From positions 1 through 20,350 of the IMG/VR virus record IMGVR_UViG_3300043783_000115: DNA of 20,350 nucleotides. One strand, given 5' to 3'. A program made the translations under genes and the position numbers. The notes beneath the pieces were generated by a model. That model worked only from the letters and a program-made list of their open reading frames with translations. It was not told the origin of the DNA and ran no database searches. Position 1 is the stretch's first letter, and the number at the start of each line of letters is the position of its first letter. The stretch is from a virus. Below, one piece after another: positions 1,518 to 19,992 of this stretch.

Positions 1518-4500
1518 ATGCCTTTGATGAAACAGGCAATCCCAATCAACTTTGCTAAGGGCTTAGATCAAAAAAGTGATCCTAAGCAACTTCAGATAGG
1601 CAGCTTCTTAGAACTAGAGAATTCTGTATTCACTAAGGCAGGTCTCCTTCAAAAGCGAAACGGCAACGCTCAGCTGACTTCTCTTCCTAATACAAACTCT
1701 GATTATCTAACTACTTTCAATAATAATCTCACGGCTATAGGAAATAATATCTTAGCATATAGCCAAAGTAATGATGTGTGGGTTACTAAAGGCACAATAG
1801 CTCCAGTAAGTGTGTCTACACTTCCTTTGATCAGGAATAGTGTTAACCAGACCGCGTGTGATTCAGTCGTCGCTAGCAATGGTTTAGTACTTACAGCCTA
1901 TACTCAGACAAACGATACATTGAGTGCAGTTAACACTCAGTATTTATTTGTCATAGCAGACTCAACAACTGGTCAGAATATTATTGAACCCACGCTAATT
2001 CCTCCGCTTGCTTCGGGGCTCATCTCCGGGTCTTCTAGAGTATTTATTGTAGAAAACTTTTTTGTAATTATATCTACGGTAACTGTTGCAGGAAATTCAT
2101 TTTTACAATATGTTTCTATCCCGATGTTTAATCCGAACAATATTTCTGCTCCACAGAATGTCTATCCAGAAGCTTATGCACCATCTCATGCCTTAGCTTG
2201 GGACGGCGTGTCTTACGGCGGAAACCTTGTCGTAGCATACAACACTACGGTAGGAGGTCAAAGCATACACGTTACTTTTTTAACCGCCGCTCAGATTGCC
2301 CTTAACTCAGATAGTAGCGTGGTTAAGACTTATGCGGGTCAATCGGCCACTGTAGTCTCTGTATCGGTAGACACCACCAACCCCACACTCCCTATATACT
2401 ACGTGGCTTATTACAGCTCCAATACTACAAACGGCTTCGTTTTAGCAGTTAGTACTTCCGTAGGTATAATTAATACTGCCCTCGCGCCCACGCAAGTTAT
2501 CACGGGGATGTCAGCGGTAAACATTGCCTCTGCTGCACAAAATGCTGTATGTACGATATTTTACGAGGTATTAAATTTTTATACTTACGATACCACAATA
2601 CCAACCCATTATGTAAGCACAGTAACTTGCACGCAAGCAGGCGTCGTTGGACCCACCTCGGTGTCTATACGGTCCGTCGGTCTCGCATCGAAGGCATTTA
2701 TTGTAGATAAGACTATATATTATCTAAGTGCATTTCAATCAACTTACCAGGATTCCTATTTTCTTATCAACGGCACATTGTCAGTAGAGACTTCGCCTGT
2801 AGTTGTTGGCAAGCTTGCGTATGAGAATGGCGGAGGCTACTTAACCCTAGGGCTACCCTCGGTGTCTGTTATTGGAAGTAGTGCGCAGATAGCTTATTTG
2901 TATAAAGATTTAATCGAAGCGCTTACTACTATTGCAAACCCCCAGCAAACAACCGCCGGCGGTATCTATAGCCAAGCCGGTATAAACCTATCGACCCTTA
3001 CATTAGGCACACAAAATATAGATACCGCTGAAATAGGTGCAAATCTTAACATTTCAGGCGGCTTTGGGTGGATGTATGATGGGTATCTCCCGGTGGAACA
3101 AGACTTCTTTGTCTGGCCAGACAATATTGAGGCGACTTATACAGAGGTATCGACCGTAACTCCCACAGGAACGGCGGCTAGTGGCTCATTTACAATTGTA
3201 GTTTCCTCAGCTACAGGCATATCCCCCGGCATGAGCATAGCCGACACCACAAACCCTACGTTTATTCCTACAGGAACCCTAGTTACTCTGGTGAATGGGA
3301 CCACATTAACTATGAGTGCAGCTACCACAAGCGCAATAGCTGGAGACACCCTGTCCATTCAGGGTAATATAGCCGCACAACCGGATTCTATTACAAATAC
3401 AGATGCTTATTACTATCAAGCCTTATACGAATGGATGGACAATCAAGGAAATATCTTTAGATCAGCCCCAAGCATCCCTATTGCCGTAACGACTGTAGGC
3501 ACGGGCACCTCCGGTACTATTACAATAAACGTACCCACTCTGAGGCTTACTTACAAAGTACCAAACCCTCTAAAAATTGTAATATACAGATGGAGCGTTG
3601 AAAATCAGGTTTATCACCAAGTGACCTCTGTAATTGCGCCTTTGCTAAACAACACCTCGGTAGATAGCGTGTCGTTTGTGGATACACTTTCAGACGCCGA
3701 CATCGAGGGTAACAGTATTATCTATACGAACGGCGGGGTAGTAGAAGACGTTAACCCTCCCGCTTATAATATAACGACTCTATTCGACACCAGGCAGTGG
3801 ATTGTGACTTCAGAAGATCCCAACTTAATGTGGTTTTCAAAGCAAGTGATCGAAGGAACACCTGTAGAGTTTTCTGACTTATTCACGTTCTATGTTCCGC
3901 CTACTACTGCGGCAGAAGGTAGTACAGGTCCTATAACCGCTATAGCGCCGATGGATGATAAGCTCATCGTATTTAAACAGAACGCCCTTTATTACATTAA
4001 CGGCACAGGGCCCGACAACACGGGCGCCAACAACGCCTACTCACCAGTGACTTTTGTAACGGCTACGGTAGGCTGCACAAATCAGCAAAGTATTGTATTT
4101 ACGCCCGCGGGCCTCATGTTTCAGTCTAATAAAGGCATCTGGCTACTCGGCAGAGACTTAAACACGACTTACATTGGCGCCCCGGTTGAGGACTTAACTA
4201 CTGGAAATTCCGTGTTATCCGCCATCGGCGTACCTGGAACTAACCAAGTAAGGTTTACCATGTCCTCCGGCGTAACCCTCATGTACGACTACTACTTCCA
4301 GCAATGGGGAACGTTTTCAGGAATACCGGCTATTTCTGCTTGTATTTACCAGGGGTTACAGACCTATCTAAACAAGTTTGGCGCTGTCTACCAAGAGACG
4401 CCCGGACTGTATCTAGACGGCACAAACCCGGTGCTTATGTCCTTCCTAACTGGATGGTTAAACCTAGCCGGTCTGCAGGGCTTTCAACGCGCATATATGT

Positions 4501-4859
4501 TCTTCTTACTCGGGCAATATATATCTCCACATTTCTTAACAATTTCAATTGCTTATGATTATAATCCCTCGCCTACGCAAGGAAATATCATACAGCCCAC
4601 TAATTACTCTCCTAATTATGGTTTGCAGCCAGGTCCGTACGGTTCAGGCCCTCAATATGGCGGCCCCGGTAACGTAGAGCAGTGGAAAGTTCATATGGAT
4701 CAGCAGAAATGTGAGGCTTTTCAAATCGGCCTGCAAGAGTCCTATGATCCGAGCAAAGGCATCCCATCCGGTGCGGGTTTCACGCTTTCTGGCATTGATT
4801 TAGTTGTGGGCAAGAAACTTGGCTACCCGAAACTGGCGGCAAGCCAGCAGATTGGCTAA
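1518..4859 (+). CDS. Very large tail nozzle / stabilisation-type protein
   Basis: This 1113-residue beta-rich protein has very few charged residues and no signal peptide. The N-terminus (INFAKGLDQKSDPKQLQ, then LENSVFTKAGLLQKRNG) is of the type seen in podophage tail proteins. The C-terminal half has a recognisable nozzle-like core: DTRQWIVTSEDPNLMWFSK, MDDKLIVFKQNALYYI (about residues 810-830), VGCTNQQSIVFTPAGLMFQSNKG, and IGAPVED. Such motifs occur in P22 gp10-like stabilisation proteins and T7 gp12-like nozzles. It is longer than either (472 and 794 residues from memory). Residues about 548-616 look like a separate inserted beta domain. AAGGT at 1505-1509 sits 8 bases before the start. It is followed by a GNAT-like gene and three internal proteins, as T7 gene 12 is. 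The nozzle role is inferred from motifs and gene order. Confidence 0.75.
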   Translation: MPLMKQAIPINFAKGLDQKSDPKQLQIGSFLELENSVFTKAGLLQKRNGNAQLTSLPNTNSDYLTTFNNNLTAIGNNILAYSQSNDVWVTKGTIAPVSVSTLPLIRNSVNQTACDSVVASNGLVLTAYTQTNDTLSAVNTQYLFVIADSTTGQNIIEPTLIPPLASGLISGSSRVFIVENFFVIISTVTVAGNSFLQYVSIPMFNPNNISAPQNVYPEAYAPSHALAWDGVSYGGNLVVAYNTTVGGQSIHVTFLTAAQIALNSDSSVVKTYAGQSATVVSVSVDTTNPTLPIYYVAYYSSNTTNGFVLAVSTSVGIINTALAPTQVITGMSAVNIASAAQNAVCTIFYEVLNFYTYDTTIPTHYVSTVTCTQAGVVGPTSVSIRSVGLASKAFIVDKTIYYLSAFQSTYQDSYFLINGTLSVETSPVVVGKLAYENGGGYLTLGLPSVSVIGSSAQIAYLYKDLIEALTTIANPQQTTAGGIYSQAGINLSTLTLGTQNIDTAEIGANLNISGGFGWMYDGYLPVEQDFFVWPDNIEATYTEVSTVTPTGTAASGSFTIVVSSATGISPGMSIADTTNPTFIPTGTLVTLVNGTTLTMSAATTSAIAGDTLSIQGNIAAQPDSITNTDAYYYQALYEWMDNQGNIFRSAPSIPIAVTTVGTGTSGTITINVPTLRLTYKVPNPLKIVIYRWSVENQVYHQVTSVIAPLLNNTSVDSVSFVDTLSDADIEGNSIIYTNGGVVEDVNPPAYNITTLFDTRQWIVTSEDPNLMWFSKQVIEGTPVEFSDLFTFYVPPTTAAEGSTGPITAIAPMDDKLIVFKQNALYYINGTGPDNTGANNAYSPVTFVTATVGCTNQQSIVFTPAGLMFQSNKGIWLLGRDLNTTYIGAPVEDLTTGNSVLSAIGVPGTNQVRFTMSSGVTLMYDYYFQQWGTFSGIPAISACIYQGLQTYLNKFGAVYQETPGLYLDGTNPVLMSFLTGWLNLAGLQGFQRAYMFFLLGQYISPHFLTISIAYDYNPSPTQGNIIQPTNYSPNYGLQPGPYGSGPQYGGPGNVEQWKVHMDQQKCEAFQIGLQESYDPSKGIPSGAGFTLSGIDLVVGKKLGYPKLAASQQIG

Positions 4860-12286: not shown

Positions 12287-14284
12287 ATGTCACTTTACGC
12301 AAGCAACAGAAATAATAGTGGCGGTGGTGTTCCGATATACCCCACTCTTGCTGACTTTCCCGCAACTGCACCTAAAGGCTCTCTAGCGGTTGCCGCCGAC
12401 TCCGGTATATTATATGAATTTAATGGGACTACCTGGGTAGCAATTGGCGGTCCCGGTTCTGTTCTGTCCGTAGGCCCCATAGATAGCGTACCGCCCTCTT
12501 CAAACGGCGCTGTAATATCTGCTGATGTTCTCATCATGCAAAGCGCCAGCGCGTCGGACCCCGGCCTGGTGAATCTCACTACACAGACCTTTGCGGGGCA
12601 AAAGACTTTCAGCACCGGGTTGACAGGTACACTAACTGGACACGCCTCTCTTGATGTCCCTTTGACTGAAGTAGGCGCCGCAAACGGTGTTGCGTCTTTG
12701 GATGGGTCTGGCAAAGTTCCTGCCTCCCAACTTCCCTCCACTGTACTAGAATACCAAGGGCTTTGGAATCCTACTACTAATACTCCCACTCTACAAGATA
12801 GTACTGGAACTAACGGGTTCGTATACCAAGTTAGTGCTGCGTTTGCAGGCCCTATTGCAGGCCTTTCTAACGCTACGATGGTTAATTTTCAAGTAGGTAA
12901 CCTAATTATATACGCAGGATCTATTAGCCAGTGGGAGCAAGCAGCGTCGCTTTCCGGTGTTACATCCGTCAACGGCTCCGTTGGAGCAGTGACAGTAAAC
13001 GCTATTAACCAATTGACCGGGGATATTACTGCGGGCCCTGCGAGTGGCTCTCAATCACAAGTATCTACTCTAGTGGCTACTACCAATTCCACACTCACTA
13101 CATTATCTGCACTAAGTTTACCGTCTAGCCAGCTTACTGGGCAAGTTTCCATAGCACACGGCGGAACTGGCCAAGCAACAGCTTCGGCTGCGTTTACCGC
13201 TTTGTCCCCAATAACGACTACTGGGGACATTATTTACAGTTCAAGCGGGACCACAAACTCTAGATTAGCTATTGGATCTACCGGTAACGTCCTCACTGTA
13301 TCCGGCGGAGTTCCTACTTGGGCCGCTCCGGCTACCGGGGGTACAGTAACTTCAGTGGGTCTGACCGTTCCATCGTTCCTAAGCGTTACTCCCGCTTCAA
13401 TTACGACCTCAGGCACATTCGCGGTATCTTTATCTGGAACTGCATTACCCAACACCAGTGGTGGGACAGGGCAAGTAAATGCGTGGAACGCGCAGGGGGT
13501 TATCTATGCTTCTAACACCTCTACACTAGCTAGTACAGCGGTAGGAACTTCTGGATATACTTTCCAAAGTCAAGGGGCAGGGAGTGCCCCACATTTTGCC
13601 CAATTTGTTGCAGTGGCCAATGGCGGAACAGGCGTAGGTACGGCTGCTGCTGCTTATAATGCTTTGTCCCCCATGACCACTACGGGAGACATAGAGTACG
13701 AGTCTGGAACAAACACGGCATCCAGGCTTGCAATAGGAACTACAGGACAGGTTCTGACAGTATCTGGGGGAATACCCGTTTGGGCGGCGAGTGGAAGCGC
13801 CACTACCGCTAATAGCTACTCAGGTTATCACAATAATAACGCTGCGTGGTCACAAACTGCAACGTCGTATGGGGCTATGACCTCAACCGGCGCCACTCCT
13901 ACGCTTACTAAAACCTTTGGATCGGGCATTACCGTAACTACAGCTGGCAGCAACGCCCCTGGCATTACGTTTACTCCTACGACAACCACAGCGACTTACT
14001 TAATTTCAGCAAAGATATTTGCTCAGACTTCTGCGTCAAGTGTCGTAGGTAACTATAGACTAACTGATGGAACTAATATAGTTGACTATGCCCAGATATA
14101 TTCAGGAAGCGCGGGAGCATTAGACTGTGTAACTTTAACCGGGGTATACACGCCCGGAGTCACTAGCGCGGTGAGCTTAACAGTAGCGGCAGCGGTGTCT
14201 GGCACTACCGGAACGTGTTTTATAGAGCCCTCCGGGACGCTAACGCCTTCTATTACATGGACTATTGTCCAAATTGCCGTTTAA
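12287..14284 (+). CDS. Long tail fibre with GGTG repeats and C1q-like tip
   Basis: This is a 665-residue trimeric-fibre-type protein. The N-terminal 70 residues (YPTLADFPATAPKGSLAVA, LYEFNGTTWVAIGGPG) are a small adapter-like unit. The shaft follows, with FAGQKTFSTG, VASLDGSGKVPASQLPS and SVNGSVGAVTVNAINQLTGD, motifs common in phage fibres. It then carries two copies of a roughly 60-residue GGTG module (residues about 287-347 and 441-500). Each runs from GGTG through AL(S)PxTTxGD and RLAIGxTG to VLTVSGGxPxWA. The C-terminal 130 residues (ITFTPTTTTATYLISAKIF, then TLTPSITWTIVQIAV) look like a C1q/TNF-type jelly roll, a usual receptor-binding tip. There is no clear Shine-Dalgarno; the start lies 2 bases after the previous stop. 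A receptor-binding role is well supported; the receptor is unknown. Confidence 0.88.
   Translation: MSLYASNRNNSGGGVPIYPTLADFPATAPKGSLAVAADSGILYEFNGTTWVAIGGPGSVLSVGPIDSVPPSSNGAVISADVLIMQSASASDPGLVNLTTQTFAGQKTFSTGLTGTLTGHASLDVPLTEVGAANGVASLDGSGKVPASQLPSTVLEYQGLWNPTTNTPTLQDSTGTNGFVYQVSAAFAGPIAGLSNATMVNFQVGNLIIYAGSISQWEQAASLSGVTSVNGSVGAVTVNAINQLTGDITAGPASGSQSQVSTLVATTNSTLTTLSALSLPSSQLTGQVSIAHGGTGQATASAAFTALSPITTTGDIIYSSSGTTNSRLAIGSTGNVLTVSGGVPTWAAPATGGTVTSVGLTVPSFLSVTPASITTSGTFAVSLSGTALPNTSGGTGQVNAWNAQGVIYASNTSTLASTAVGTSGYTFQSQGAGSAPHFAQFVAVANGGTGVGTAAAAYNALSPMTTTGDIEYESGTNTASRLAIGTTGQVLTVSGGIPVWAASGSATTANSYSGYHNNNAAWSQTATSYGAMTSTGATPTLTKTFGSGITVTTAGSNAPGITFTPTTTTATYLISAKIFAQTSASSVVGNYRLTDGTNIVDYAQIYSGSAGALDCVTLTGVYTPGVTSAVSLTVAAAVSGTTGTCFIEPSGTLTPSITWTIVQIAV
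13145..13330 (+). repeat. Fibre GGTG module, copy A
   Basis: The encoded unit starts VSIAHGGTGQ, passes ALSPITTTGDIIY and RLAIGSTGNVLTV, and ends PTWAAP. It is similar to copies B and C at the protein level but diverged at the DNA level. It is followed by GGTVTSVGL, which also recurs at 14829-14858 and (as GGTVTSVSV) near 15270. Confidence 0.8.
13607..13789 (+). repeat. Fibre GGTG module, copy B
   Basis: This is the second module in the same fibre: VAVANGGTGVGT, ALSPMTTTGDIEY, RLAIGTTGQVLTV, PVWAA. It joins directly to the C-terminal tip domain. Confidence 0.8.
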
Positions 14285-14296
14285 AGGATTGAAATT

Positions 14297-14683
14297 ATGA
14301 GACAGAGTAGTATAGCGTTAAAGATTGGTGGAGTTTCGATGGTAGGAACTAGTATGACAACTAGTTTTATCTCAGACCCACAAAACTTAGTTAGTATCTA
14401 CGCCTATTCTATCCAAGTAGTTTGGTCTGGGGGCGCGGCACCGGTTGGAACTTTCAGTTTGCAAGGTAGCGATGATCCAGGAGATATCGGTAGCGGACAG
14501 GCAGTATCGCTTCCAGTGAACTGGACTAACATCACTAGCTCCCCCCAAGCCATAAGTGGAACCCCAGGAAGCATCTTATACGATGTCGTGGAGTGCTCTT
14601 ACCGCTGGGTTCGCCTAGTGTACACGGCTGTTTCAGGCTCGGCTACTGTCACTGCAGCTACTATTAATGTAAAGGGAGTGTAA
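14297..14683 (+). CDS. Small beta-sandwich protein, copy 2 of fibre cassette
   Basis: This 128-residue beta-rich protein is paralogous to the one at 11871-12284. Shared landmarks are VWSGGAAPVGTFSLQGSDD, then NWTNI, and YRWVRLVYTAVSGSATVTAA. The N-terminal half (SIALKIGGVSMVGTSMTT) differs more. AAGGA at 14284-14288 lies 8 bases before the ATG. The gene starts 12 bases after the first fibre and ends 1 base before the second. It is inferred to pair with the second fibre as its paralogue pairs with the first, perhaps as a fibre-anchoring or capping subunit. A decoration protein is an alternative. No enzymatic motif is visible. Confidence 0.78.
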   Translation: MRQSSIALKIGGVSMVGTSMTTSFISDPQNLVSIYAYSIQVVWSGGAAPVGTFSLQGSDDPGDIGSGQAVSLPVNWTNITSSPQAISGTPGSILYDVVECSYRWVRLVYTAVSGSATVTAATINVKGV

Positions 14684-14684
14684 T

Positions 14685-16619
14685 ATGCAGTATTATGTAA
14701 AATTACCCCCTAGCGGAGGAGGAGGGGTTACAAGCGTCAACGGCGCTACGGGCGCCGTTGACATCCTAGCAGGTACAGGTATTACTGTAACCACAGTTGG
14801 CGACAATATTACTATAGCGACTGCTGCTGGCGGAGGAACTGTAACTTCTGTAGGGCTGGCGGACACAAGCACTACACCCATCTACACAGTATCGGGCTCT
14901 CCGGTCACTACATCGGGAACGTTAGACATCACCCTAAATACGCAGTTAGCGAACACGGTGTTTGCTGGTCCTACTTCAGGTGGGGCTAGTCAGCCTGCGT
15001 TTAGGGCTATTGTTCCTGCAGATGTTCCCACTCTAAATCAGAACACCACAGGAACCGCCTCTAACGTTACCGGCGTGGTCGCCATAGTTAACGGAGGTAC
15101 TGGTCAGACTACCGCAAATGCCGGATTTGACGCCTTATCGCCAATGACTACTGCAGGCGATTTGGTTTATGAAAATGCCACGCCAACAGCAGCTAGGTTG
15201 CCTATAGGTAGTACAGGTCAAGTTCTTACTGTCGTGGCAGGTGAACCAGCCTGGGCAGCGCCCGCAACGGGCGGAACTGTAACTTCTGTTTCTGTAGTAT
15301 CCGCAAACGGTTTAGCCGGAACTGTCGCTAATCCGACTACTACTCCGGCTATCACACTTAGTACCACAGTCACCGGGGTTTTGCAGGGTAACGGTACTGC
15401 TATTAGTGCTGCCTCTACTACAGGCACGGGAAGCGTTGTTCTTGCCACTAGCCCCACCTTGGTGACTCCTGCGTTAGGGACGCCCTCAGCATTGGTATTG
15501 ACCAATGCTACTGGATTACCTCTTTCAACCGGTGTAACTGGGGTATTGCCTATAGCTGATGGAGGAACTAACAACAGTTCTGCGTACACTGCGGGATCTA
15601 TTATATTCTCTAATGGAACTTCTCTAACTCAAGACAATGCAAACTTATTTTGGAATGATACTAACTTTTCTTTAGGGTTGAGTAATAATTTACCCGCTGC
15701 CAACGCGTTTATTGATGGCGTGAACAGCACTGCTGCGGCTAAAAGAATTGTCCTGACCGGCTACGGTGTTGGCTCTACTGTAGGATTTAGAGGCAGGTTT
15801 GGGCGCGGCACCTCTAGCTCTCCTTCCGCCGTTCAAGCTGGAGACACTTTTAATTTTATAAGTGGACAAGGATACGGAACTTCACAGTTTCCTGCCTCAA
15901 GTACAGGCGCTATTAATATTGTAGCTAATGAAACTTTTACAAACACATCCAACGCTACTTTTATTCAATTTCAAGTTACTCCTACCGGATCTACTACTAT
16001 AGCAGAGGCGATGCGGATCAATTCCACAGGTAATGTGTTGATTGATACTATCACAGATAATGGCTTAGACAGTCTGCAAATAGGCTCCGGTATCAGTGCG
16101 GGATATATCAAGCTAACCGGAGCTACCTCAGGAAACGTAGAGCTTATATCTCCCGCCACAGTAACCTCCTATGCTCTTACACTTCCTTCGGCCCAAGGTG
16201 CTGCAAGTTCTGTTCCAATAAATAATGGGAGTGGGACACTTTCTTTTTCTCCAAACGTAGCGGTGGGAGTTATAGGGATAACCATAGACGGCGCTGGAAG
16301 CGTACTCACCACAGGTGTCAAAGGCTACACATCTGTACCATTTGCGTGTACAATTAATAGCGTGACTTTGCTTGCAGATCAGACGGGTTCTGTGGTAGTG
16401 GACATCTGGAAGACGCCATATTCGTCTTTTCCTCCAACCGTGGCCAATACTATTACAGCGTCCGACCTTCCAACTATTTCTAGCGCTCAAAAAAATCAAG
16501 ATACTACTTTAACGGGCTGGACTACAACTGTAAATGCTAATGATACTATAGGATTCAACGTAAATAGTTGTACTTCTATAACTAGACTTAACTTGATACT
16601 AAAAGTAACTAAAATATAA
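14685..16619 (+). CDS. Long tail fibre with GGTG repeat and distinct C-terminal tip
   Basis: This 644-residue fibre opens with a short stretch (MQYYVKLPPSGGGGVTSVNG) and a SVNGATGAVDI unit, lacking the adapter-like N-terminus of the first fibre. One GGTG module lies at residues about 132-193 (VAIVNGGTGQ, ALSPMTTAGDLVY, RLPIGSTGQVLTV, PAWAAP). A shaft follows with LATSPTLVTPALGTPSALVL, GTSQFPASSTGAINIVA and EAMRINSTGNVLI, motifs frequent in phage fibres. The C-terminal about 120 residues (ITIDGAGSVLTTGVKG, then FPPTVANTITASDLPTIS, TLTGWTTTVNANDTIGFNV) form a tip type seen in other phage fibres, as I recall, and unrelated to the first fibre's C1q-like tip. GGGAG lies 6 bases before the start. 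A receptor-binding role is likely. Confidence 0.88.
   Translation: MQYYVKLPPSGGGGVTSVNGATGAVDILAGTGITVTTVGDNITIATAAGGGTVTSVGLADTSTTPIYTVSGSPVTTSGTLDITLNTQLANTVFAGPTSGGASQPAFRAIVPADVPTLNQNTTGTASNVTGVVAIVNGGTGQTTANAGFDALSPMTTAGDLVYENATPTAARLPIGSTGQVLTVVAGEPAWAAPATGGTVTSVSVVSANGLAGTVANPTTTPAITLSTTVTGVLQGNGTAISAASTTGTGSVVLATSPTLVTPALGTPSALVLTNATGLPLSTGVTGVLPIADGGTNNSSAYTAGSIIFSNGTSLTQDNANLFWNDTNFSLGLSNNLPAANAFIDGVNSTAAAKRIVLTGYGVGSTVGFRGRFGRGTSSSPSAVQAGDTFNFISGQGYGTSQFPASSTGAINIVANETFTNTSNATFIQFQVTPTGSTTIAEAMRINSTGNVLIDTITDNGLDSLQIGSGISAGYIKLTGATSGNVELISPATVTSYALTLPSAQGAASSVPINNGSGTLSFSPNVAVGVIGITIDGAGSVLTTGVKGYTSVPFACTINSVTLLADQTGSVVVDIWKTPYSSFPPTVANTITASDLPTISSAQKNQDTTLTGWTTTVNANDTIGFNVNSCTSITRLNLILKVTKI
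14736..14762. repeat. 11-bp GC-rich inverted repeat at the start of fibre 2
   Basis: gtcaacggcgc (14736-14746) and gcgccgttgac (14752-14762) are exact reverse complements around a 5-base loop. It encodes VNGATGAVD, whose codons are themselves complementary in order, so it may partly result from the protein motif. It lies about 50 bases into the gene, where it could slow initiation or early elongation. A shorter imperfect hairpin occurs at the equivalent motif near 12969 in fibre 1. Confidence 0.6.
15078..15263 (+). repeat. Fibre GGTG module, copy C
   Basis: This is the third module, in the second fibre, with the same landmarks as copies A and B. It links the two fibres as paralogous shafts despite their different tips. 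Confidence 0.8.
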
Positions 16620-18225: not shown

Positions 18226-18672
18226 ATGAAAACCCTAACTTTACTTTTAGCTAGCGTGTTTGCGGTATTTGCTCCAGTAAAAGCTGTACTACTCACCACC
18301 TTGGTGCTTGTTGCCGCAGATCTAGTAACCGGAATCATAGCGGCAAAAAAACAAAAAACCCCAATCACGTCGTCTGGCATCGGCCGCACGGTATCTAAGC
18401 TTTTCATATACGAGGTTGCTGTATTGCTGGGCTTTCTGGCTGAAACCTACATGACCGGCGCGGCTATCCCTTTGAGTAAGATCATTTCTGCTTTCATTGC
18501 CTTAACCGAAACTACCAGTATTATTGAAAATTTGAACGCTATTACTGGAACAAATCTGTTCTCAAGCCTTTTGACCTCTATAGGTAGCCAAAATGCTACT
18601 CAAACGTCAATGACTACTGTAGTTCAAACACTTCCGCCTCCTACTACCCCCCAACCCCCTATTGTACCTTAG
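18226..18672 (+). CDS. Holin (phage_holin_4 type)
   Basis: This 148-residue membrane protein would permeabilise the inner membrane to release endolysin. Hydrophobic segments lie at about 3-39, 57-76 and 81-101. The signature fits the phage_holin_4 / toxin-secretion holin family: VLVAADLVTGIIAAKK (27-42), TSSGIGRTVSKL, and ETTSIIENLNAITG (94-107). A Thr/Pro-rich tail (TLPPPTTPQPPIVP) ends it. AGGA at 18216-18219 is 6 bases before the ATG, which is 3 bases after the tailspike stop. It heads a holin-protease-endolysin set. The family assignment is good; function follows from family and position. Confidence 0.85.
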   Translation: MKTLTLLLASVFAVFAPVKAVLLTTLVLVAADLVTGIIAAKKQKTPITSSGIGRTVSKLFIYEVAVLLGFLAETYMTGAAIPLSKIISAFIALTETTSIIENLNAITGTNLFSSLLTSIGSQNATQTSMTTVVQTLPPPTTPQPPIVP

Positions 18673-18678
18673 GAATAT

Positions 18679-19380
18679 ATGAAGAAAGTAATCGTATCTC
18701 TAATCGTCCTTATCGCCTTAGTTTCTTCCACATTTAGTTGTCAGACGTCAGGGGAAAAAGTCAAAGAAAGCGTTGTAAAGCTCACCAGCGCACATGAGCA
18801 GTGCTCAGGAATTCAGGTTAAAGCGCCGAGTGGGATGACATATATCCTAACTGCAGGTCATTGTAAAGGCATTGCAGATGCATCCGGTTCTATATTAGTT
18901 ATGACTGAAGATAAGAAACAGGTTCAGCGTAAGATCATAGCAGAAGATCCCGCATCTGACCTGCTGCTTCTTGAAGGCGCCCCCGGTGTTCCAGGACTCG
19001 ACGTTGCGTCTCACGATCGACGAGGGCAATTTATTAGAACCTTCACTCATGGGCATGGATTAGATACCTACGAGACAGATGGGATTTTGATTGGCGATCT
19101 ATCTATTAAAATTCCCGCAGAAGAAATTGATTTACTAGAATGTGTAAAAATGCCCAAGTATAAAAAAGAAACCATTGATATGTTTTTTGGGATTACTGCT
19201 GATATATGCGCCCTTGAGGTTACAGAAACCGTCACTAACGCTCTGATTATACCGGGGGCTAGTGGGGGCGCCGCTGTTGATTCTAGAGGACACTTGATCG
19301 GTATATGCAGCGCCACGGGCGGCGGCTTAGGCTACTTAGTGACCTTGAAGGACATCAACAAGTTCCTTAAAGGATACTAA
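18679..19380 (+). CDS. Secreted trypsin-like serine protease in the lysis cassette
   Basis: This 233-residue protein has an N-terminal signal (KK, hydrophobic 4-15) ending in STFSC21, a lipobox-like cleavage site, so it may be a lipoprotein or a periplasmic protein. The chymotrypsin-fold triad is visible: His61 in ILTAGHC, Asp94 in PASDLLLL, Ser195 in GASGG. Cys42 and Cys62 bracket the His loop as in trypsin-like enzymes. The C-terminus (GHLIGICS, GYLVTLKDINKFL) completes the second barrel. AGGA is 4 bases before the start. It lies between holin and endolysin genes, overlapping the latter by one base, so it is expressed with lysis. It could act on envelope proteins at lysis or on secreted targets. 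The substrate is unknown, and a role in lysis is inferred from position. Confidence 0.88.
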   Translation: MKKVIVSLIVLIALVSSTFSCQTSGEKVKESVVKLTSAHEQCSGIQVKAPSGMTYILTAGHCKGIADASGSILVMTEDKKQVQRKIIAEDPASDLLLLEGAPGVPGLDVASHDRRGQFIRTFTHGHGLDTYETDGILIGDLSIKIPAEEIDLLECVKMPKYKKETIDMFFGITADICALEVTETVTNALIIPGASGGAAVDSRGHLIGICSATGGGLGYLVTLKDINKFLKGY

Positions 19381-19808
19381 TGCAATTAAACTCTGCTGGT
19401 ATTAACCTTATACGAACCTATGAAGGTTGTCGTTTAGTAGCTTATCAGGACCAAGGGGGTATCTGGACTATCGGTTTTGGGACGACAGGTCCAGACATCG
19501 TAGACGGTATTGTATGGACCCAAGATCAAGCCGAAGCTCGCTTGGAGTCTGACCTCAATCGGTTTGCAGTCGGTGTGAGTAACGTATTGGCTAATGACAT
19601 CGGCGACAACAGATTCTCCGCTTGTGTCTCCTTGGCCTATAATATTGGACTTACTGCATTTGCTACGTCTCATCTTTGCATCCTTTTAAACGGCGGCGAC
19701 TATACTGACGCTGCGGCTGAATTTCCTAAATGGGATCATTGTAATGGGCAAGTTGTTCATGGTCTACTAAACCGTCGTTTGGCAGAGCAGAAATTATTTC
19801 TTTCCTAA
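19380..19808 (+). CDS. Endolysin, GH24 T4-type lysozyme
   Basis: This 142-residue peptidoglycan muramidase carries the E-x8-D-x5-T catalytic motif as Glu15, Asp24 and Thr30 in YEGCRLVAYQDQGGIWTIG, followed by FGTTG. Further family landmarks are RFSACVSLAYNIG and, at the end, GLLNRRLAEQKLF. There is no signal peptide or anchor, so it depends on the holin. The length is typical of the family. The ATG overlaps the protease stop (TAATG) and follows AAAGGA by 5 bases, implying coupled translation. Its last 83 bases are antisense to the 3' end of the HTH gene on the other strand. Confidence 0.95.
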   Translation: MQLNSAGINLIRTYEGCRLVAYQDQGGIWTIGFGTTGPDIVDGIVWTQDQAEARLESDLNRFAVGVSNVLANDIGDNRFSACVSLAYNIGLTAFATSHLCILLNGGDYTDAAAEFPKWDHCNGQVVHGLLNRRLAEQKLFLS

Positions 19809-19992
19809 GCTTTCGCCATTTGTGCGATTCAGCCCAAAGGTCTAAGTCCTCTTTCGCATACCTACACTCTTTTGTTCTCTTACCCATAACCCGGGTGTAA
19901 ACAGGCCCTTCGTGGGCGTGCATTTCATGGCGCATATTGCGAAGATAATAAACTGATATACCTAGGTAAACGGCAGCTTCTTTGGGTGTCAT
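19726..19992 (-). CDS. Excisionase-type helix-turn-helix DNA-binding protein
   Basis: This is an 88-residue protein. Residues 1-55 match the HTH_17 (excisionase/MerR-like) pattern: MTPKEAAVYLGISVYYLRNMR, then VYTRVMGKRTKECRYAKEDLDLW. A basic and acidic helical tail follows (KWRKLRKEIISAL). It starts with a 4-base ATGA overlap with the upstream 76-residue gene, so translation is probably coupled. Its final 83 bases overlap the end of the endolysin gene in antisense. No integrase is in the window, so it may be an excisionase, a repressor-like regulator or a small DNA-binding protein of an early module. The domain is fairly certain; the exact role is unknown. Confidence 0.82.
   Translation of the reverse strand: MTPKEAAVYLGISVYYLRNMRHEMHAHEGPVYTRVMGKRTKECRYAKEDLDLWAESHKWRKLRKEIISALPNDGLVDHEQLAHYNDPI

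Follow-up and report, generated by a model that had tools for sequence, protein, structure and literature searches.

A predicted exported, PDZ-less serine protease as a recurrent and optional component of phage lysis modules

The question raised by this locus is why a phage should carry a gene for a serine protease between its holin and its endolysin. The locus lies in an IMG/VR record of 20,350 bases, referred to here as the window, which is probably a fragment of a larger genome. The gene (18679–19380, plus strand) begins with ATG and specifies a protein of 233 aa, identified from its PF13365 match, its orthologues and an AlphaFold model as a PDZ-less S1-type (chymotrypsin-fold) serine protease that is predicted to be exported. 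Immediately 5' is a Phage_holin_4_1 gene (18226–18672, plus strand; 148 aa; PF05105, 1.5e-10; phrog_199 holin), and on the 3' side is the gene for an endolysin of the T4 lysozyme type (19380–19808, plus strand; 142 aa; PF00959, 7.8e-38; phrog_7 endolysin). The first-pass annotation had placed the protease between holin and endolysin and had described a tight coupling to the endolysin start, and both points hold, with one nucleotide common to the protease stop and the lysozyme start (TAATG, 19378–19382). This overlap, together with an AAAGGA just 5' of the lysozyme start, is consistent with translational coupling of the two genes. Convergent to the lysis genes is a gene for a small HTH_17 protein (19726–19992, minus strand; PF12728, 3e-07; phrog_66, excisionase-type).

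The match to PF13365 (Trypsin_2) extends over residues 42–209 (8.2e-10), with a score of 40 bits that is above the curated cut-off of 27.6. The His-Asp-Ser order and the GxSGG motif required for membership of the S1 family and PA clan are present, the catalytic residues being His61 in ILTAGHC (codon 18859–18861), Asp94 in SDLLLLE (18958–18960) and Ser195 in GASGG (19261–19263), all on the plus strand. The position of the ORF and the numbering of the triad were therefore given correctly at the outset. The accompanying description of the protein as trypsin-like is right for the fold, which is of the chymotrypsin type, but not for the specificity. The residue at the floor of the S1 pocket, six positions before the serine, is Leu189 rather than Asp and is variable in the orthologues, so that trypsin specificity is not expected of the window protease.

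An AlphaFold model built from eight sequences is a chymotrypsin-type double beta-barrel (pLDDT 88, pTM 0.81). The best matches to the model in the PDB are the protease domains of the HtrA/Deg proteins DegS and DegP, with Z scores of up to 23 and 22–27% identity over some 180 residues. The protease domain of the window protein reaches its C-terminus, no PDZ match is found in Pfam and the NCBIfam HtrA models score far below their cut-off; in the absence of a PDZ domain the protein is not filed as an HtrA. Since six orthologues keep the triad and the model has a confident chymotrypsin-type fold, the resemblance is more than chance and the protein is a real PF13365 serine protease, with its activity predicted from sequence.

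Searches with the single window protein gave no close relatives, either by tblastn against INPHARED at E 0.01 or in the IMG/VR scan, the plasmids and the GTDB genomes. When E values of up to 10 were allowed, the INPHARED matches were mostly HtrA/DegS-like and have the appearance of cellular contamination, and the others were weak and partial. A DNA pattern for TAGHC followed by GxSGG gave 36 loci with only one real ORF, outside lysis modules, and the seven loci obtained with a stricter GxSGG pattern were mostly accessory or bacterial-type proteases. The one real ORF (L041:6658-7911, plus strand) comes from a viral contig of 71 kb, where it lies away from any lysis cassette. It specifies a signal-bearing protein of 417 aa that has the motifs ILTAGHC and GDSGGP and whose similarity to trypsin in Pfam is sub-threshold only.

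As the single-protein searches found nothing close, relatives were sought through the large tail-region protein of the window (1518–4859, 1113 aa), by which 79 related viral loci were reached. PF13365 was found in seven of the 50 larger contigs behind these loci, but not in any of the 24 smaller contigs or of the five tail relatives examined first. Three of the seven contigs (G020, G027 and G065) carry orthologues of the window protease, and a further copy of the protease in G030, beside an XhlA-like gene, is cut off by the end of the contig. An alignment of the window protein with the three orthologues was then used to search IMG/VR, which gave three more orthologues (L171, L173 and L176) and two distant relatives (L177 and L178). 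The six orthologues of the window protease are 43–48% identical in the alignment of the family (45–49% for the first three when they were identified), and with the window the family numbers seven, all of them traced through the kinship of tail genes or the sequence of the protease and not by way of lysis genes. Tail-gene kin were also seen in one Burkholderiales (61%) and one Actinomycetales (38%) MAG contig, which is too weak a signal to name a host.

His61, Asp94 and Ser195 are invariant in the alignment of the seven orthologues, and the triad is also intact in 11 more distant phage proteases; inactive triads across the family, which had been named as evidence that would count against the first-pass reading, are thus not what is seen. 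Four cysteines (C42, C62, C155 and C177) are likewise invariant in the seven. In trypsins the Cys42-Cys58 pair flanks the active-site histidine, and the similar placing of C42 and C62 suggests that the protein folds outside the cytoplasm.

The N-terminus points in the same direction. Residues 1–21 (18679–18741, plus strand) consist of MKK, a hydrophobic run of 12 residues and STFSC, with a helix over residues 2–19 in the model, and form a plausible Sec signal. The suggestion that this N-terminus is signal- or lipobox-like stands for the signal but only in part for the lipobox, as the TFSC of the window lacks both the usual Leu, Val or Ile at -3 and a small residue at -2, and the window protease may therefore be secreted without lipid. 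In four of the six orthologues a canonical or near-canonical lipobox is found (LASC in L165, LHAC in L166 and L176, IASC in L171), none of them with Asp at +2, whilst a clear lipobox is absent from the window protease, L170 and L173. With four lipobox-bearing orthologues and three without, export is predicted to be general and lipidation variable.

All seven orthologues are found in lysis modules, the other genes of which differ. The window order of PF05105 holin, protease and lysozyme has its nearest counterpart in L166, where an XhlA-like membrane protein precedes the protease and the same 1-nt overlap joins protease and lysozyme. In L170 the order is XhlA-like gene, protease, small ORF and lysozyme, in L171 the protease is convergent with the lysozyme, and in L173 the protease is followed by a PF05105 holin and an M15 peptidase. 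An XhlA-like gene precedes the protease in both L176 and L165, with the protease convergent with an M15 gene in the former and with a DUF5675 gene, which is no more than a candidate endolysin, in the latter. Profile matches to phrog_689 (holin) and phrog_937 (hemolysin), all of them weak, and mutual similarity are the basis of the XhlA-like label.

Linkage to holin and endolysin clusters is also seen beyond the seven. Two tail-gene relatives, G046 and G040, have distant proteases upstream of a lysozyme, and the distant protease of L178, in a phage contig that does not have the tail protein of the window, overlaps a GH19 endolysin by 4 nt. Distant relatives likewise adjoin lysis genes in the Sulfitobacter phages pCB2047-A, pCB2047-C and NYA-2014a, the order being endolysin, holin, unknown, XhlA and protease in pCB2047-A and the same in NYA-2014a, with no holin annotated. 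In Microcystis phage Mae-JY35 a lysozyme-like gene is followed, at a distance of about 1 kb, by a distant protease. A minority of distant phage trypsins (L060, L063/L065, L177, G018 and G041) are outside lysis modules, and with these may be grouped the trypsin of L066, which comes about 1.7 kb after an amidase and on the far side of the holin. The same neighbourhood, which the first-pass annotation had proposed to look for in the lysis regions of related phages, is therefore shared by all of the orthologues and with different endolysin types, but not by some of the distant trypsins; for the close family, the converse finding of homologues mostly far from lysis genes does not apply. PF13365 and PF00959 co-occur in five of the 50 relatives (Fisher p 0.006) and lie within 1 kb of each other in four of these five (p ~8e-5 under random placement), values to be taken as guides only, given the relatedness of the contigs and the non-random placement of genes in phages. 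Most relatives of the window phage have no protease gene, and G029 has the same holin-lysozyme pair as the window, 16 bp apart and with no protease between, from which it follows that the gene is optional and dispensable.

Several other genes were seen in these contigs. In G032, which has no PF13365 match, a rhomboid intramembrane protease (L196:2307-2906, plus strand; PF01694, 1.4e-18) is encoded directly 5' of a PF05105 holin and a T4-type lysozyme, so that a cassette of this type also occurs with a protease of another class. A partial ORF of 678 bases at the end of locus L169 (contig G046), in opposite orientation to the trypsin gene and a few kb from the lysozyme-linked PF13365 protease, resembles an exported subtilisin-like protease (NGHGT and SGN, by eye). 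In the phage contig G003, portal, terminase and capsid-like genes are accompanied by two type IV prepilin-like ORFs (L020:13098-13694 and 13998-14780, minus strand; GFTLVELMIVV and GFTLIELMIVV).

The conserved triad and the repeated linkage to lysis genes across endolysin types support a lysis-linked exported protease. We conclude that the window gene encodes a PDZ-less S1 protease, predicted to be exported, that is a recurrent but optional component of lysis modules. On balance it is probable that the protease is expressed late together with the holin and endolysin and acts in the periplasm on envelope proteins during lysis. After late co-expression the protein would fold in the periplasm, where several orthologues are predicted to be lipid-anchored, and would cut host envelope proteins, with complete failure of the envelope as soon as the wall has been cleaved. 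More speculatively, the protease could target proteins of the outer membrane or proteins that tether peptidoglycan, and could do the job that is done by spanins in other phages. Against a role in lysis, an active protease exported through Sec would act before the holin is triggered unless it were restrained. Export ahead of triggering would fit a late envelope-remodelling moron, which would ride in the late operon without being needed for lysis and would trim outer-membrane receptors or surface proteins, thereby blocking superinfection or the re-adsorption of progeny to debris. The optional presence of the gene among relatives and the intact holin-lysozyme cassette of G029 agree with such a function, as does the lipoprotein-like trypsin of L060, a lone opposite-strand gene in a moron-like place beside the portal gene. 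However, the gene is more closely tied to endolysin and holin genes, and with endolysins of different classes, than would be expected of a free-roaming moron, and this explanation is considered rather unlikely.

A role in lysis timing, in which the protease would cleave the holin, the XhlA-like protein or the endolysin to activate or limit it, draws on the XhlA-like gene that adjoins the protease in L165, L166, L170, L176, G030 and the Sulfitobacter phages. Yet there is no constant partner, as the holins (PF05105, XhlA-like) and endolysins (lysozyme, M15, GH19) vary between the cassettes that keep the protease, and a signal-anchor segment is absent from the lysozyme of the window; such a role appears improbable. 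Much the same low likelihood is given to a counter-defence or periplasmic housekeeping protease, derived from an HtrA-type host gene and lodged in a lysis region that merely tolerates insertions. The fold is indeed closest to HtrA protease domains and other accessory genes do occur near lysis genes, but the missing PDZ domain and the confinement of all seven orthologues to lysis modules argue otherwise. The PADLOC matches are weak only (RT-Protease_XI, 1.6e-4, in the GxSGG region), and a reading of the gene as part of a defence system, which has no other basis, was set aside.

The preferred reading, a periplasmic protease acting at lysis, leads to the matter of spanins. The window protein itself is not a spanin, two-component or unimolecular, in the usual sense of a lipoprotein, a protein with an N-terminal TM segment or both, bridging the two membranes and having no enzymatic fold, since it has a globular protease fold and its lipobox is non-canonical. 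No small lipoprotein gene lies directly beside the endolysin in any of the protease-bearing cassettes. In G041, which has its protease elsewhere in the contig, a small lipoprotein gene overlaps the lysozyme start. Among relatives without the protease, G038 has a lipoprotein ORF of 99 aa that shares bases with a small gene on its 5' side and stops 10 bp short of the lysozyme, a small lipoprotein precedes the DUF5675 gene in G019 and G002, and G001 has one near a GH25 gene; in four others (G029, G031, G032 and G054) none is found directly beside the lysozyme. In G002 (L019:4240-5398, plus strand), a close relative that lacks the protease, the small lipoprotein ORF upstream of DUF5675 runs out of frame over the end of the ORF before it, in an arrangement like that of spanin genes. 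A six-frame lipobox scan of G090 (52.8 kb), made with a simple pattern rather than with LipoP or SignalP, leaves no free-standing lipoprotein candidate apart from the protease, and in G092 there are three other small lipoproteins, so that spanins are possible there. This pattern of lipoprotein or protease beside the endolysin hints that the protease may stand in for an o-spanin. In a fuller form of the idea, an exported and often outer-membrane-anchored protease would replace the spanin by digesting the tethers between outer membrane and wall, the last envelope barrier thus being breached by proteolysis, which is a tentative proposal and a doubtful one.

In a survey of 677 phage genomes no spanin was found in about 13%, and it was asked whether another route through the outer membrane exists (PMC6139136). 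If spanin replacement were true, it would explain in part the release of phages that have no spanin. An exported protease that recurs in lysis modules is in any case a concrete and testable candidate for a non-spanin route or for a new lysis accessory, and suggests that a protease may serve some phages as an additional break-out tool of a kind not described so far. No paper describing a protease as a component of the lysis module was found in the literature collection searched, which was not complete.

Several known systems resemble parts of this picture. With HtrA/Deg proteases (MEROPS S1C) the window protein shares the chymotrypsin-type double barrel, the His-Asp-Ser triad, GxSGG and export, but it is phage-encoded in a lysis module, is without PDZ and belongs to a family with four conserved cysteines, including the ILTAGHC cysteine pair. 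Distant members of the protease family also occur in phages that are in culture, namely the 'protease' (phrog_9683-type) of Sulfitobacter phages pCB2047-A, pCB2047-C and NYA-2014a, an exported Trypsin_2 protein with the same triad that adjoins an XhlA-type gene close to holin and endolysin. It is only ~26% identical to the window protein, is annotated simply as a protease and was given no lysis role in the Sulfitobacter phage literature found. Spanins (Rz/Rz1 and u-spanins) are similar in having their gene beside the endolysin, in being exported and often lipoproteins, and in the role proposed at the last barrier, but the window protease is an enzyme with a catalytic triad and has no coiled-coil to bridge two membranes. 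Disruptin of phage phiKT has been proposed as a non-spanin route through the outer membrane, and is a small cationic peptide, whereas the window protein is an enzyme.
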